A stretch of 54,900 nucleotides of DNA from assembly GCA_021776685.1 (NCBI GenBank), contig JAJFFJ010000100.1:1-54900 (forward strand). Reading direction: 5' to 3'. The position numbers and the translations under genes are program-made. This document shows positions 3,357-9,893 of this stretch, piece by piece. How positions within the stretch are numbered: the stretch's first letter is position 1; every line of letters begins with the position of its first letter. The notes beneath the pieces are model-generated. The model was not told the origin of the DNA. It did no database searches and saw only the letters and a list, made by a program, of their open reading frames with translations. This DNA is from Alphaproteobacteria bacterium (lineage in GTDB: Bacteria; Pseudomonadota; Alphaproteobacteria; Bin65).

Positions 3357-4781
3357 CTAGAGGCGCACGTACTCGTAGTCCACGGGATTGTTGTTGATGC
3401 CGCGGTCCGGCGGGGCGAGCCAGCCGGCAATCTTGCCGGGCTCCGTAACCTGCTGCATCAGGCTGTGGATGTAGGCCTTGTCCTCGGCCGAGGGCAGCCA
3501 GTCGTTGACATTCTTCTTCCATTCTTCCTCTGAGATCACCTTGCCTTCCGGGGAGACCCGGACGTTGGCGAACGGACCAACGGTGCGGCGGAAGCGGTCA
3601 GACGGCAAGGATAGCTCGAAGTCGATGCCCATCTTCTTGATCTGCCGGTTCCAGCGGTTGAGGCCGATCTCGCAGTCCTTGGAATAGCCATGACGGGCCA
3701 CCAGGTTCATGGCGTTCCGCGTCGGCACCTGCAGGATGCCCACGGACGTGCCGTCTTCACCCAGTTGCTCGACACCGAAAGTGGTGTCCAGCTCGATGTG
3801 ATCCTCGAACATGTCCTCGTCCGGCCGGCCCTTCAGGCCATTGGCGAAATAGTTCGCCGCGTTGGTAGACTGGTCGGAGCCAAACAGATCAAGCGAGCTC
3901 GAATACCAGAAATTCAGGTGCCGCTGGACCGTTGGCAGGTCGATCGCGCCATGCTCCCGTACCCGGGTCGGGTCATCGGACTTGATCTCGTTCATCACCT
4001 CGCAGGCGCGTTTGATGACCCGGCCAAGGCCGGTCTCACCCACGAACATGTGGTGCGCTTCTTCAGTGAGCATGAAGCGGCAGGTGCGGGAGAGCGGATC
4101 GAATGCGCTCTCCGCCAGCATCTTGAGCTGATATTTGCCGTCCCGGTCGGTGAAGTAGGTGAAGCAGAACAGCGACAGCCAGTCGGTCTGCGGCTCGTTA
4201 AATGTGGAGAGGATGCGCGGATTGTTGACGTCGCCGGAGTGACGCTCCAGCAGTTCCTCCGCCTCCTCGCGGCCGTCACGGCCGAAATAGCCGTGCAGCA
4301 GATAGACCATCGCCCACAGGTGGCGGCCTTCTTCCACATTGATCTGGAAGAGGTTGCGCATGTCGTACATGGACGGTGCGATCTGCCCGAGCAGACGCTG
4401 CTGCTCGACCGATGCCGGCTCCGTGTCTCCCTGGGTGACGATCAGGCGGCGCAGGTCGGCGCGGTATTCGCCCGGGATCTGCTGCCAGACATCTTCCCCA
4501 TAATGGTCGCCGAAACCGACCTTGCGTTCTTTCGCCTGGTCCGCCAGGAAAATACCCCAGCGGTAGTCGGGCATCTGGGTGTAGCCATAGCTGGCCCAGC
4601 CCTTGGCGTCGACGGACGTGGCCGTACGCAAATAGACATCCTTCTGCTGGAAGCCTTCCGGCCCCTGCTCTTTCCACCAGTCGAGAAAGGCAGGCTGCCA
4701 CTTCTCCAGTGCCCGTTGCAGTTGCCGGTCTTCTGCCAGGTCAACATTGTTCGGGATTTTCTCAGCGTAATTGATGGCCAT
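3357..4781 (-). CDS. boxB: Benzoyl-CoA 2,3-epoxidase, oxygenase component BoxB
   Basis: A 474-residue class I diiron oxygenase that uses O2 and two electrons to convert benzoyl-CoA to the 2,3-epoxide in the aerobic hybrid (box) pathway of benzoate breakdown. Length matches known BoxB proteins (about 473). The six residues expected as iron ligands are present: E121, E151, H154, D212, E241 and H244 (motifs EEGRH at 150-154 and EEAHH at 240-244), each one position on from the Azoarcus numbering as I recall it. Start and stop are clean, and the gene begins 5 bases after boxC. A strong terminator follows. The usual reductase BoxA is not encoded in this window, so the electron source is open. Confidence 0.96.
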   Translation of the reverse strand: MAINYAEKIPNNVDLAEDRQLQRALEKWQPAFLDWWKEQGPEGFQQKDVYLRTATSVDAKGWASYGYTQMPDYRWGIFLADQAKERKVGFGDHYGEDVWQQIPGEYRADLRRLIVTQGDTEPASVEQQRLLGQIAPSMYDMRNLFQINVEEGRHLWAMVYLLHGYFGRDGREEAEELLERHSGDVNNPRILSTFNEPQTDWLSLFCFTYFTDRDGKYQLKMLAESAFDPLSRTCRFMLTEEAHHMFVGETGLGRVIKRACEVMNEIKSDDPTRVREHGAIDLPTVQRHLNFWYSSSLDLFGSDQSTNAANYFANGLKGRPDEDMFEDHIELDTTFGVEQLGEDGTSVGILQVPTRNAMNLVARHGYSKDCEIGLNRWNRQIKKMGIDFELSLPSDRFRRTVGPFANVRVSPEGKVISEEEWKKNVNDWLPSAEDKAYIHSLMQQVTEPGKIAGWLAPPDRGINNNPVDYEYVRL

Positions 4782-4786
4782 TTTAA

Positions 4787-6442
4787 TTAGACCCTTTCCC
4801 AGTCGAAGTTCGGCTTGGAACCGGTACCATAGAGTTTCAGGGCGCCCTGGTCGCCAACGGCGTTGGGGCGGATGAATATCCAGTTCTGCCAGGCAGTGAG
4901 CCGCCCGAAAACTTTGGTGGCCATGGTCTCGTCGCCGCCGAAACGGAGCGAGGCTTCCATGCCGGTGAGCGCGTCCGGCGACAGGCTGGTGCGCTCTTCA
5001 ATGGCGATGCGCACCTCGTCGTCCCAGTCCAGATCATCCGGCGCGAAAGTCACCAGACCCAGTTCCAGGGCGTCTTCCGCCGTCAGCGCATCGCCGATCC
5101 GGGCCTTGGCTGCCGCCACCGCGTCAACGTCACCCTGGAAATGTGCGGTCATGCGATCCTGGTCGTTGGGCATGGTGAACATGCCAAAGTTGGTGGCGTC
5201 CAGGGTGATGGCCGGAGATTTCTCAGGCTCTTCCTGGTTGTCCAGCATATAGGTGCGGTCGGCGGCGAGCGCGAGTTCCGCCAGAATGCCGGTGAAGCAC
5301 GTATCTTCATCCACCAGCGCGAACAGGCTGCGCGACGAGACGTCGAGCCGCGCCAGCGCGCGCCGCAGGAAGTTGGTGGTTTCACGCACGAACCAGTTGT
5401 CCTGATTGTCGATCAGGCTCTGGCCCACGGCCTGGATACGGGCCGCATCGCCTTCTGCCCGCAGGATCCACAGGCCCAACTCGGTGGAGTTGGTGCGCAG
5501 CATCAGGATGGCGTCATCCAGGTCGCGCGCCATGTGCAGTGCCCACCAGTCGGCGCCCTTGGCGTGGATCGCGTCCACATCCGTCGGCTGATCCTCTGCC
5601 GGGCCCTTGACCGTGATGGTCGCGGTCCGGTCGGCCGAATTCAGCTGCACATCGACAAAGTCATAGTGATAGCCATCGTCGTCGATCGTGCGGTTGATCG
5701 GGGTCAGCTTGACGCCTTCGGCCGATTCGGGCCGGTCGGACTGGGCGGCCAGCGCCGTCGCGCGGTCGGCGACGAATTCGTCGAATTTGGCAGGTGGCGC
5801 ATAGTCGTCGATCAGCTTCCAGTCTTTGGCGCGGTCGGCGCGGACACCCTCAGAGGTGGTGCAAAACACGTCTGCCAGATCCCGGCGGACCTTGCGTTTG
5901 TCGGTCACCCGCGTGAGCCCGCCCGTGCCCGGCAGTACGCCCAGAAGCGGGACTTCGGGCAGGGACACGGTGGATGAGCGGTCATTGACCATGACGATCT
6001 CGTCACAGGCGAGCGCCATCTCGTAGCCGCCGCCGGCGCAGGCGCCATTCACGGCCGCAATCGACTTGATTCCAGAATGCTCCGAGGAGTCTTCCAGACT
6101 GTTGCGGGTTTCATTGGTGAACCTACAGAAATTGACTTTCCACCAATGAGGCGATGCCGAAAGCATGTTGATGTTGGCGCCGGCGCAGAAAACACGATCT
6201 TTCGCGCTGGTCATGACCACCACCTTGACGGTCGGATGCTCGAACCGGATGCGCTGCATGGCGTCATGCAGTTCCATGTCGACGCCCAGGTCATAGGAAT
6301 TCAGCTTGAGCTGATAGCCTGGCTTCAGGCCGCCATCCTCGTCCACATCCAGGGACAGGGTCGCCACGCTTCCGTCCACATCAAGCTTCCAGTGCTTGTA
6401 GGTGCCGGGGTCACGGTCATAGACGACAATATTTTCAGCCAT
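4787..6442 (-). CDS. boxC: 2,3-epoxybenzoyl-CoA dihydrolase (benzoyl-CoA-dihydrodiol lyase) BoxC
   Basis: A 551-residue crotonase-superfamily enzyme that hydrolytically opens the ring of 2,3-epoxybenzoyl-CoA, giving 3,4-dehydroadipyl-CoA semialdehyde and formate. Two crotonase modules are visible; the N-terminal one has the CoA/oxyanion loop FCAGANINML (about 85-94) and the helix motif ACAGGGYEMALACDE (about 134-148) with the acidic residue E141. Length agrees with characterised BoxC (about 550). It is the first gene of boxC-boxB. Its promoter region holds TTGACA and a TGCA-N6-TGCA palindrome attributed to BoxR. The ATG is preceded by GAGGGAGGACC, a good ribosome binding site. Confidence 0.95.
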   Translation of the reverse strand: MAENIVVYDRDPGTYKHWKLDVDGSVATLSLDVDEDGGLKPGYQLKLNSYDLGVDMELHDAMQRIRFEHPTVKVVVMTSAKDRVFCAGANINMLSASPHWWKVNFCRFTNETRNSLEDSSEHSGIKSIAAVNGACAGGGYEMALACDEIVMVNDRSSTVSLPEVPLLGVLPGTGGLTRVTDKRKVRRDLADVFCTTSEGVRADRAKDWKLIDDYAPPAKFDEFVADRATALAAQSDRPESAEGVKLTPINRTIDDDGYHYDFVDVQLNSADRTATITVKGPAEDQPTDVDAIHAKGADWWALHMARDLDDAILMLRTNSTELGLWILRAEGDAARIQAVGQSLIDNQDNWFVRETTNFLRRALARLDVSSRSLFALVDEDTCFTGILAELALAADRTYMLDNQEEPEKSPAITLDATNFGMFTMPNDQDRMTAHFQGDVDAVAAAKARIGDALTAEDALELGLVTFAPDDLDWDDEVRIAIEERTSLSPDALTGMEASLRFGGDETMATKVFGRLTAWQNWIFIRPNAVGDQGALKLYGTGSKPNFDWERV

Positions 6443-6481: not shown

Positions 6482-6513
6482 TTTATATGCATAATAATGC
6501 ATGTTCATGTCAA
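6482..6513 (-). promoter_or_regulatory. boxC promoter with overlapping operator
   Basis: On the minus strand a perfect -35 TTGACA (6508-6513) and a -10-like TATAAA (6482-6487) are separated by 20 bases, longer than ideal. The whole spacer is filled by the operator palindrome at 6487-6502, so a bound regulator would block polymerase. Promoter assignment is by inspection only. Confidence 0.55.
6487..6502. promoter_or_regulatory. Putative BoxR operator upstream of boxC
   Basis: ATGCATAATAATGCAT: two ATGCAT arms around AATA, so TGCA-N6-TGCA. TGCA repeats in palindromic settings are the known recognition feature of the BzdR/BoxR family (established knowledge). The same element recurs at 7612-7626 beside boxR. 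Confidence 0.65.
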
Positions 6514-6543: not shown

Positions 6544-7503
6544 TCACTGAGCCGCAAGGGCCGAAGACTCTCCGCTGTTCTCGCGAACCATCTCGACCAA
6601 ATTCGCCAGCGTCACGTCCACCGATTGGCCGGACGTATCCAGCACCGCATCGGCGCGGCCATAGAGGGTGTCCCGCTCCTTCAGCATGCGGCGCAGATCT
6701 TCCATTGCCTCTCGATTGCCCGCCATTGGCCGCAGGTCACCCTGGGCGACCACCCGATCCATATGCTCTTCCGGCGATGCGCGAAGCCAAATGGTGAAGC
6801 AATGCTCCAGCAGCAATTCATATGTGTCGGACTCGGAAACCATGCTGCCGCCGGTGGCGATGACACAGGCGTCGTTGCTGTCGAGCGCGCTTTCCAGCGC
6901 GCGCCGCTCGTAGCGGCGATAACCCGCCTGGCCGGAGAGATCAAAAATCTCGTCCAGCCCCATGCCAGACGCGCCTTCAATTTCCTTGGCCATTTCAATA
7001 AACGGCACCCCCAGGGCGCCGGAAAGCGCGCGGCCCAGGGTGGTCTTGCCGGCGCCACGCAGCCCGATCAAAGCAATACGCGATGAGCGGTAGAGATCGG
7101 AACTTGCGCCGAAACGCTCGGCAAGCAGGCGGTTCGCCTCCACCAATTCCTCAGCGGTCAGCCGTTCAAGCCGTTGCATCAACAAGGTCAGTTCCACAGG
7201 CCGGTCCGCGCCGTCACGCACCAGATCAGTCAAGGGCAGGCCCATGGCGTCGGCGACCTGGCGCAGCAGAGCAATGGAAATGTTGCCCCGGCCGCTCTCA
7301 AGCTGGGCGAGGTAGCGCTCTGACACGCCCGAGTCCCGTGCGAGGATCTTGCGGGTCATGCCGCGGCGTGCACGTGTCGCCTTGACGCGTTCGCCCAGCA
7401 CCCGCAAATAGTCCTGGTGAACCACCGCGGCACATGGTGCCCGGCGTCCGCTGCCGGTATCTTGCGGGTCGCGGGGTTTTGGTTCAGGGATGCCTTGAGC
7501 CAT
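6544..7503 (-). CDS. boxR: BoxR/BzdR-family transcriptional regulator (HTH plus shikimate kinase-like domain)
   Basis: A 319-residue two-domain regulator. Residues about 35-95 form a Cro/CI-type helix-turn-helix (LGERVKATRARRGMTRKILA followed by GVSERYLAQLESGRG). After a linker of about 45 residues comes a shikimate-kinase-like domain with the P-loop GLRGAGKT (about 147-154) and an ARRYERRALE-like region. In this family the kinase-like domain senses benzoyl-CoA and the protein represses the benzoate genes. I start it at the ATG preceded by AAAGGAAAATACC; the reading frame is open further upstream, to 7632, but that would run through the operator region. It lies just upstream of boxC, same strand, with its own intergenic control site. 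Confidence 0.9.
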   Translation of the reverse strand: MAQGIPEPKPRDPQDTGSGRRAPCAAVVHQDYLRVLGERVKATRARRGMTRKILARDSGVSERYLAQLESGRGNISIALLRQVADAMGLPLTDLVRDGADRPVELTLLMQRLERLTAEELVEANRLLAERFGASSDLYRSSRIALIGLRGAGKTTLGRALSGALGVPFIEMAKEIEGASGMGLDEIFDLSGQAGYRRYERRALESALDSNDACVIATGGSMVSESDTYELLLEHCFTIWLRASPEEHMDRVVAQGDLRPMAGNREAMEDLRRMLKERDTLYGRADAVLDTSGQSVDVTLANLVEMVRENSGESSALAAQ

Positions 7504-7611: not shown

Positions 7612-7626
7612 ATGCATTATAATGCT
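7612..7626. promoter_or_regulatory. Putative BoxR operator between boxR and the flavodoxin gene
   Basis: ATGCATTATAATGCT contains the perfect 12-bp palindrome GCATTATAATGC (TGCA-N6-TGCT). Its centre reads TATAAT on both strands. A further TGCATTAT half-site lies at 7644-7651. The element matches the one in the boxC promoter, which suggests autoregulation and co-regulation of the flavodoxin. Confidence 0.62.
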
Positions 7627-7654
7627 TGTCAACCTGCAAGCAGTGCATTATCAA
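7626..7654 (+). promoter_or_regulatory. Candidate flavodoxin promoter
   Basis: TTGTCA (7626-7631) and TATCAA (7649-7654) are spaced 17 bases, 30 bases ahead of the flavodoxin ATG at 7685. The extra TGCATTAT half-site overlaps the -10. The other strand carries TTGACA at 7627-7632 as a possible boxR -35. Confidence 0.45.
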
Positions 7655-7684: not shown

Positions 7685-8149
7685 ATGGACATCAAGATCT
7701 TGGTCGGTACCATGACCGGCACTGCAGAGATGGTTGCGGAGGAAATGTCCGACGCGCTGACCGACGCGGGGCACAGCGCCGACATCACCGCCATGGACGG
7801 GCTTGATGCCTCGGCCTTCTCCGACGAGGGGATTTACCTGATCGTCACCTCCACCTACGGCCAGGGCGACGTGCCGGACAACGGCATCCCGCTCTACGAA
7901 GAGCTGGAGGAGAAGAAGCCGGACTTGAAGCACGTCACCTACGGCATCTTTTCCCTGGGTGACCGCACCTATGCGGAAACGTTCAATTTCGGCGGCCGCA
8001 AGTTTGACGAAGTGTTGGCAACATGCGGCGCCAAAAAAATCGGCGAGCGTTTCGAGCACGACGCCAGCTCCGGCACCATCCCGGAAGATGACGGCGTCGA
8101 ATGGGTGAAGGAGTGGACTGCAAATTTTGACATGGCCCGCGCCGCCTGA
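7685..8149 (+). CDS. Flavodoxin (MioC/CPR-FMN-domain type)
   Basis: A 154-residue FMN-binding electron carrier. The phosphate loop TMTGTAE (9-15), the isoalloxazine loop TSTYGQGDVPDNG (55-67) and the FSLGDRTYAETFN segment followed by FGGRKFDEVL are the three standard FMN contacts of the short-chain flavodoxin group related to MioC and to the FMN domain of cytochrome P450 reductase. A strong ribosome binding site (GGGAGG) precedes the ATG. It is divergent from boxR, and TGCA-type operator elements lie between them, so it is probably part of the box regulon. A role in passing electrons to BoxB is an inference from position. Confidence 0.88.
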   Translation: MDIKILVGTMTGTAEMVAEEMSDALTDAGHSADITAMDGLDASAFSDEGIYLIVTSTYGQGDVPDNGIPLYEELEEKKPDLKHVTYGIFSLGDRTYAETFNFGGRKFDEVLATCGAKKIGERFEHDASSGTIPEDDGVEWVKEWTANFDMARAA

Positions 8150-8324: not shown

Positions 8325-9893
8325 ATGTCAGTCAGGCTGCAAAACTATGTGAGCGACAAATGGGTCGATGGCGACGGTGATGGCGCGGTCCTGATCAACC
8401 CGGTCACCGGCGCGGAAGTCGCCCGCGCCACCACCGACGGCGTCGACATGGAAAGCGCGCTGCGCCACGGGCGCATGGTGGGCGGCCCCGCACTCCGCGC
8501 CATGACCTTCGCTGAACGGGCGGCGCTGCTGTCCGCCATGGGCGACGTGCTGATCGCCAACCGCGACCGCTATTTCGACATCGCCCGTGAGAATTCCGGC
8601 AACACCAAGATCGACGCCACCATCGACGTGGACGGCGGTTCAGGCACGCTCAAATACTATGGCGCGATCGGCAAGGGCCTGGGCGACGCCACAGTAATGC
8701 GCGATGGCGGGCTGGAGCGGTTCGGCAAGGATGACACCTTCCAGGCGGTGCATTTGAGGGTGCCGGTGGAGGGCGTTGCCATCCACATCAACGCCTTCAA
8801 CTTTCCGTCCTGGGGGATGTGGGAGAAAGTCGCCTGCGCTTTCCTCGCGGGCGTGCCGGTGCTGGCCAAGCCAGCGACGGCGACGGCGCTGTTGTCCCAC
8901 GAGATGATCAGCGACGTTGTCGGCGCAAATATTCTGCCGGCAGGCGCGCTATCGCTGATCTGCGGCAGTGCGGGCGATCTGCTCGACCATGTGGACCGCC
9001 GGGACGCAATCGCCTTCACCGGCTCAGCGGAGACCGCGCGACGACTGCGCACCCACCCCCGCGTGGTGGAAGGCGCCGTGCGCTTCAACGCCGAGACCGA
9101 CAGTGTCAACTCCAGCATCCTGGGCGAGGATACCAGCCCCGGCTCGCCGGAATTCGACCTGTTCGTGCGCGAGGTTGCACGGGAGATGACGGTCAAGTCC
9201 GGCCAGAAATGCACCGCCATCCGGCGTGCCCTGGTGCCGGTGGCGCTGATGGACGCCGTGACGGAGGCCCTGGTTGCCCGGCTGGGCCGCACGGTCGTCG
9301 GTGACCCGGCAGATGAGAACGTCACCATGGGCCCTGTGGTAGACCATACCCAGCGGCGCAACGTGCTGGATGCGATTGGCCGGCTGAAGGCGGAGGCCCA
9401 GGTGATTACCGGCGATGCGCTGGATGTGGTCGGTGCGGATGCCGAGGCCGGCGCCTTTATCGCGCCCACGCTGCTGCGGTGCGACGACCCGGAAGGTGCG
9501 ACGGCAGTACATGAGGTCGAAGCCTTCGGCCCTGTCTCAACGCTGATGCCCTACACCTCCGCCGAAGAGGCCTTTGCGCTGGCCGGCGCCGGTGGTGGCT
9601 CCCTGGTGGCGTCGGTCTTCACCGCCAACGATCTGTTCGCACAAAACGCGGTCCTGGGCCTGGGCGACAGCCATGGCCGGGTGCTGGTGATCGACGAGGC
9701 GGTGGGCAAGCTGTCCACGGGTCACGGCATCGTCATGCCCATGTGTGTGCATGGCGGGCCCGGCCGGGCCGGCGGCGGCGAGGAACTGGGCGGCCTGCGC
9801 GGCCTGCGCTTCTATCAACAGCGCCTGGCGATGCAGGGCAACAAGGACCGGGTCATGGCGCTCGCCGACGCGGCGGTCGAGATCGCGGTCTGA
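8325..9893 (+). CDS. boxD: 3,4-dehydroadipyl-CoA semialdehyde dehydrogenase BoxD
   Basis: A 522-residue NAD(P)-dependent aldehyde dehydrogenase of the PaaZ-like branch that oxidises the semialdehyde released by BoxC to 3,4-dehydroadipyl-CoA. Visible features are NAFNFPSWGMWEK (157-169), the cofactor lysine in LAKPAT (about K182), FTGSAETA (231-238), the general-base glutamate in FNAETDS (E257) and the nucleophile in SGQKCT (C296). I start at ATG 8325, which follows GGGAG; an upstream in-frame ATG at 8271 lacks a site. It is on the opposite strand from boxCB and lacks an obvious TGCA operator, so it may be read from the flavodoxin promoter or separately. Substrate is inferred from context and the family. 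Confidence 0.9.
   Translation: MSVRLQNYVSDKWVDGDGDGAVLINPVTGAEVARATTDGVDMESALRHGRMVGGPALRAMTFAERAALLSAMGDVLIANRDRYFDIARENSGNTKIDATIDVDGGSGTLKYYGAIGKGLGDATVMRDGGLERFGKDDTFQAVHLRVPVEGVAIHINAFNFPSWGMWEKVACAFLAGVPVLAKPATATALLSHEMISDVVGANILPAGALSLICGSAGDLLDHVDRRDAIAFTGSAETARRLRTHPRVVEGAVRFNAETDSVNSSILGEDTSPGSPEFDLFVREVAREMTVKSGQKCTAIRRALVPVALMDAVTEALVARLGRTVVGDPADENVTMGPVVDHTQRRNVLDAIGRLKAEAQVITGDALDVVGADAEAGAFIAPTLLRCDDPEGATAVHEVEAFGPVSTLMPYTSAEEAFALAGAGGGSLVASVFTANDLFAQNAVLGLGDSHGRVLVIDEAVGKLSTGHGIVMPMCVHGGPGRAGGGEELGGLRGLRFYQQRLAMQGNKDRVMALADAAVEIAV

Follow-up and report, generated by a model that had tools for sequence, protein, structure and literature searches.

A flavodoxin gene, fld, which lies across the boxR promoter in an alphaproteobacterial box (aerobic benzoyl-CoA) cluster, probably codes for the electron carrier dedicated to a benzoyl-CoA epoxidase module that works without BoxA, and we put the probability of this reading at about 0.74. 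The reductase described for BoxB, the diiron epoxidase of the pathway, is BoxA. Slightly less firmly, we also favour the broader view that the box pathway has a widespread form that has gone unrecognised, with a dedicated flavodoxin and an FprA-type NADPH reductase replacing BoxA for a distinct clade of BoxB, and that within the sampled class BoxA serves as donor in the minority of cases. A 2024 survey scored box clusters lacking boxA as incomplete (PMC10803450); should the flavodoxin act as donor, many of these clusters could work, and the capacity to degrade benzoate would have been under-called. Two donor systems would then serve one kind of diiron epoxidase, each mostly associated with its own BoxB clade and sometimes both found in one operon, and donor specificity could be tested directly in this enzyme. 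No paper linking a flavodoxin to BoxB was found in the open-licence literature.

The window is the whole analysed stretch of 54,900 nucleotides (contig JAJFFJ010000100.1 of assembly GCA_021776685.1). Its boxB, boxC and boxD orthologues exceed curated cut-offs, which places it in the box pathway, and it carries the pathway's regulator together with TGCA-palindrome operators (Table 1). The fld gene is divergent from boxR-boxC-boxB, and the fld-boxD gene order recurs in G008, G193, G285 and Acidobacteria. A boxR start at 7632 was replaced by 7503 in the start codon check, which leaves a boxR-fld gap of approximately 180 bp containing operators. In BoxB, the putative iron-ligand positions E121, E151, H154, D212, E241 and H244 are invariant in 121 sequences. 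The BoxA-BoxB epoxidase system of Azoarcus/Aromatoleum evansii (3per) shares with the window these putative ligands, orthologues of BoxB, BoxC, BoxD and BoxR, and the divergent BoxR-controlled layout. In contrast to that system, the window cluster has no boxA (a ferredoxin-FAD reductase fusion), has a stand-alone flavodoxin across the boxR promoter, and has a BoxB that falls in a separate clade.

Table 1 Box-cluster genes and BoxR sites in the window
Feature	Position	Strand	Location	Evidence
boxB (diiron benzoyl-CoA 2,3-epoxidase, flavodoxin-linked clade)	3357..4781	-		TIGR03225, 781 bits over 499; aligned to 3per
boxC	4787..6442	-		TIGR03222, 918 bits over cut-off 712
BoxR operator ATGCATAATAATGCAT	6487..6502		upstream of boxC	motif search
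boxR (XRE + shikimate-kinase-like repressor of box genes)	6544..7503	-		PRK08154, 401 bits; start codon checked
BoxR operator ATGCATTATAATGCTT	7612..7627		boxR-fld gap	1 mismatch to published palindrome (PMC6449761)
Second BoxR half-site GTGCATTATCAA	7643..7654		31 bp downstream of 7612 operator	sequence, by eye
fld (MioC/cindoxin-type flavodoxin)	7685..8149	+		154 aa; Pfam, NCBIfam and structure matches
boxD	8325..9893	+	downstream of fld	PRK11903, 734 bits over 444

The fld gene is intact, and its product is a short-chain flavodoxin of the MioC/YqcA/cindoxin group by domain, fold and FMN-loop motifs. A flavodoxin of the MioC/P450-reductase FMN-domain type had already been proposed here from the sequence alone, and the Pfam, NCBIfam and structure matches agree with that proposal. 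A profile search gives 97 bits to Pfam Flavodoxin_1 (cut-off 25), and the top NCBIfam models are PRK08105 (129 against 160 bits) and MioC (126 against 158 bits), both below their equivalog cut-offs, so that the protein belongs to neither equivalog. The fold predicted by AlphaFold2 (pLDDT 92.5) has cindoxin (4oxx) as its first-ranked Foldseek match at a TM of 0.87, the nearest solved structures are MioC, YqcA and cindoxin, and the FMN loops TGTAE, STYGQGD and LGDxTY are kept in 26 relatives. Escherichia coli MioC and YqcA are the best sequence matches in its length class; unlike theirs, the context of fld is a catabolic cluster. Cindoxin feeds an oxygenase. Its partner in Citrobacter braakii is the haem P450cin, whereas the partner proposed for the fld product is a diiron epoxidase.

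The published BoxR palindrome is ATGCACTATAGTGCAT (PMC6449761), and BoxR-like operators in the fld promoter, as claimed by the sequence-only reading, are borne out by the near-exact site at 7612 and by two motif matches in the window (6487 and 7612) against 0.22 expected. Across the genome, a match with at most two mismatches occurs only at these two sites and at two on contig C84 before a second boxB. Most homologues of fld also have a BoxR-like operator upstream, in Acidobacteria as well as in Alpha- and Betaproteobacteria. Read by eye, the right end of the 7612 operator overlaps a -35-like TTGTCA (7626-7631), and the half-site covers a -10-like TATCAA; a promoter scan over the operator called no consensus promoter at this pair, so a promoter there is a suggestion.

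No boxA is present in the window: the whole-genome search matched only contigs C84 and C142, not C158. The sequence-only reading had built its alternative donor on a missing boxA, and this holds for the window, in which no boxA adjoins boxB, but not for the genome. An intact boxA (593 bits, cut-off 459) lies at C84:15903-17105, immediately after a second boxB with 59% identity to that of the window, and two BoxR-operator-like sites stand upstream of this boxB2-boxA pair. A boxA elsewhere under the same operator type was the first half of what that reading had named as speaking against it, and the search of the genome found just that. The absence of boxA from the window's own genome is therefore dropped as a premise, and the case for an alternative donor instead draws on relatives without boxA, synteny and operators across phyla, the BoxB tree and a linked NADPH reductase. 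Since BoxR-like sites precede both modules, they are probably derepressed together. No boxC was seen in the 20-kb stretch around the C84 pair. There (L052, 8275-11112) the boxB-boxA pair is followed by a VOC/glyoxalase-like gene, with cbb3-type oxidase genes near on the other strand; the pair may represent a variant of the pathway for low oxygen.

The C84 gene gives rise to the strongest competing explanation, which we nevertheless consider unlikely: that its BoxA supplies both BoxBs, and the flavodoxin is accessory or is used only in relatives that have lost boxA. The C84 boxA is intact and has the two BoxR-like operators described above, and BoxA reportedly acts transiently and in minor amounts (PMC4498308), so that one BoxA could serve two BoxBs. 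However, the two BoxBs share only 59% identity and fall in different clades, and each kind has its own donor as neighbour in the window's genome (G000), in G008 and G010, and in two betaproteobacterial operons (L255 and L260).

Relatives argue for the flavodoxin as donor. In the sister genus g2, all seven sampled species (genomes 95-97% complete) have one boxB above the cut-off, of the window type, and no boxA above the cut-off; their flavodoxin is 66-69% identical to that of the window and lies beside boxR, approximately 3 kb from boxB. Both modules are present in G008 and G010, as in the window's genome; an order-level search gave no genomes beyond the family. Across 385 genomes of the class, 40 have both the flavodoxin and boxB, 7 the flavodoxin only, 41 boxB only and 297 neither (Fisher p ~1e-24, kinship ignored). 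Among the 81 genomes with boxB, boxA occurs in 15: the flavodoxin is present without boxA in 36, boxA only in 11, both in 4 and neither in 30. The co-occurrence in boxA-less genomes that the sequence-only reading had looked to is thus seen in 36 of 81 boxB genomes and in every sampled g2 species. The number with neither donor ranges from 30 to 37 depending on the flavodoxin threshold, in a sample in which several genomes are fragmented metagenome-assembled genomes, and such genomes indicate that a generic donor can serve BoxB. Ten boxB neighbourhoods lacking both boxA and the flavodoxin were read, and no linked donor was recognised in them; boxC-boxB loci with neither donor nearby include L137, L145, L146, L149, L151, L148, L196, L157, L154 and L204.

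The linkage has the same form at the level of loci. Approximately 95 boxB neighbourhoods in the class are flavodoxin-linked, boxA-linked (17) or linked to neither, and none has both; in approximately 30 class loci fld and boxR-boxC-boxB diverge, and this layout recurs in many families, in Betaproteobacteria and in Acidobacteria. Of the 80 top-ranked relatives of the flavodoxin in GTDB contigs, which belong to Alpha- and Betaproteobacteria and Acidobacteria, boxR adjoins the gene in 73 and boxB is within reach in 46 (several others end at contig edges), in a set fetched with the flavodoxin as query, from which the commonness of the arrangement is not estimable. Of the genomes from this set, 42 of 49 lack boxA. 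Because the flavodoxin and BoxB pair in many bacteria without BoxA, the flavodoxin is probably the missing donor of BoxB.

A more general role, for example as a MioC-like carrier, or a part in another step with mere co-regulation with the box genes, seems to us quite improbable. The closest known proteins, MioC, YqcA and cindoxin, are general or P450 donors, and flavodoxin relatives without boxB exist (for example, in G090, G123, G225 and G389), some by an alpha/beta hydrolase. No boxB was found in the G123 and G225 genomes, so the window-type flavodoxin may have another partner there. Against this, no box-pathway enzyme other than BoxB is known to require a reduced carrier, the boxR neighbour is kept in nearly all of the best named loci, and the flavodoxin is common where boxA is absent. 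At L107, L112 and L117 a window-type flavodoxin is followed by an alpha/beta hydrolase gene, with no boxB near. Flavodoxins of family f66 (44% identical) were set aside as another orthologue, being away from box genes.

The BoxB phylogeny, built by two methods, separates the two donor types to a large extent. The window BoxB belongs to a supported clade (SH-aLRT 95) of 49 rows, with 41 flavodoxin-linked, one boxA-linked (G074) and several unlinked; outside it fall all other boxA-linked BoxBs, most unlinked ones and 11 that are flavodoxin-linked. The donor label requires 15-16 changes on the tree, against 50-54 in shuffles, and G000, G008 and G010 each have one BoxB of each clade. A comparison of BoxB net charge by donor type gave no useful difference. 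Residues that set the two clades apart include positions 292 (W/H) and 394 (S/H). Given that a plain distance comparison cannot separate shared ancestry from coupling, we used a partial Mantel test, in which flavodoxin distances track those of BoxB after removal of BoxC and BoxR (r 0.37, p 0.0005); because tree distances depend on one another, this result is suggestive only. The betaproteobacterial operons L255 and L260 read boxR-boxC-boxB(BoxA clade)-boxA-boxB(flavodoxin clade) with a divergent fld, and so hold both donors.

Several lineages also link an NADPH reductase to boxB. The gene matches adrenodoxin reductase (1cjc, E 8e-70) and mycobacterial FprA (1lqt, 1e-55); unlike these, it would here reduce a flavodoxin rather than a ferredoxin. 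It follows boxB within approximately 25 bp in f61, f80, f57 and L280, and lies within a few hundred bp of it in Acidobacteria and L242. In g2 the gene belongs to an fprA-korA-korB trio downstream of boxB; the window's genome has this trio at C105, unlinked to the box cluster. Its place in a korAB cluster means that fprA is not box-specific in the window's family and is probably shared there. FprA occurs in 30 of the 35 flavodoxin-linked genomes (not seen in the other 5), in 3 of 11 with boxA only and in 10 of 14 with neither donor. In G207, a genome without a boxB match, the genes for an FprA-type reductase and a flavodoxin lie side by side and diverge (L303, 2783-4748), which suggests a pairing independent of the box pathway. 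It is very hard to credit that the flavodoxin serves only to activate or repair the BoxB diiron centre, as NrdI would, with turnover supported by a generic ferredoxin: generic donors must suffice in some of the many boxB genomes with neither donor, but no linked ferredoxin was recognised among the conserved neighbours of the flavodoxin loci, where the NADPH reductase is linked instead.

With the flavodoxin as electron donor, the route would run from NADPH through an FprA-type reductase and the flavodoxin to BoxB. BoxR would repress the divergent fld(-boxD) and boxC-boxB units until benzoyl-CoA accumulates, benzoyl-CoA being the presumed inducer by analogy with the studied BoxR/BzdR. The putative partner that reduces the flavodoxin would be an NADPH-dependent flavoprotein reductase, in most cases an adrenodoxin-reductase/FprA-type enzyme (C105 here); the flavodoxin in turn may pass electrons to the diferric centre of BoxB, and the reduced enzyme would epoxidise benzoyl-CoA with O2. 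That centre must be reduced before O2 activation (PMC5489048). BoxA is reported not to co-purify with BoxB, and minor amounts reportedly suffice for its transient action (PMC4498308), which makes a soluble transient carrier plausible. The window BoxB would prefer the flavodoxin despite the BoxA encoded in the same genome.

Beyond the clades discussed above, a deeply branching BoxB-like group (L064, L067, L136 and L156) has neither boxC nor boxR in the stretches that were read; the proteins of L064 and L067 are 47-49% identical to the window BoxB.
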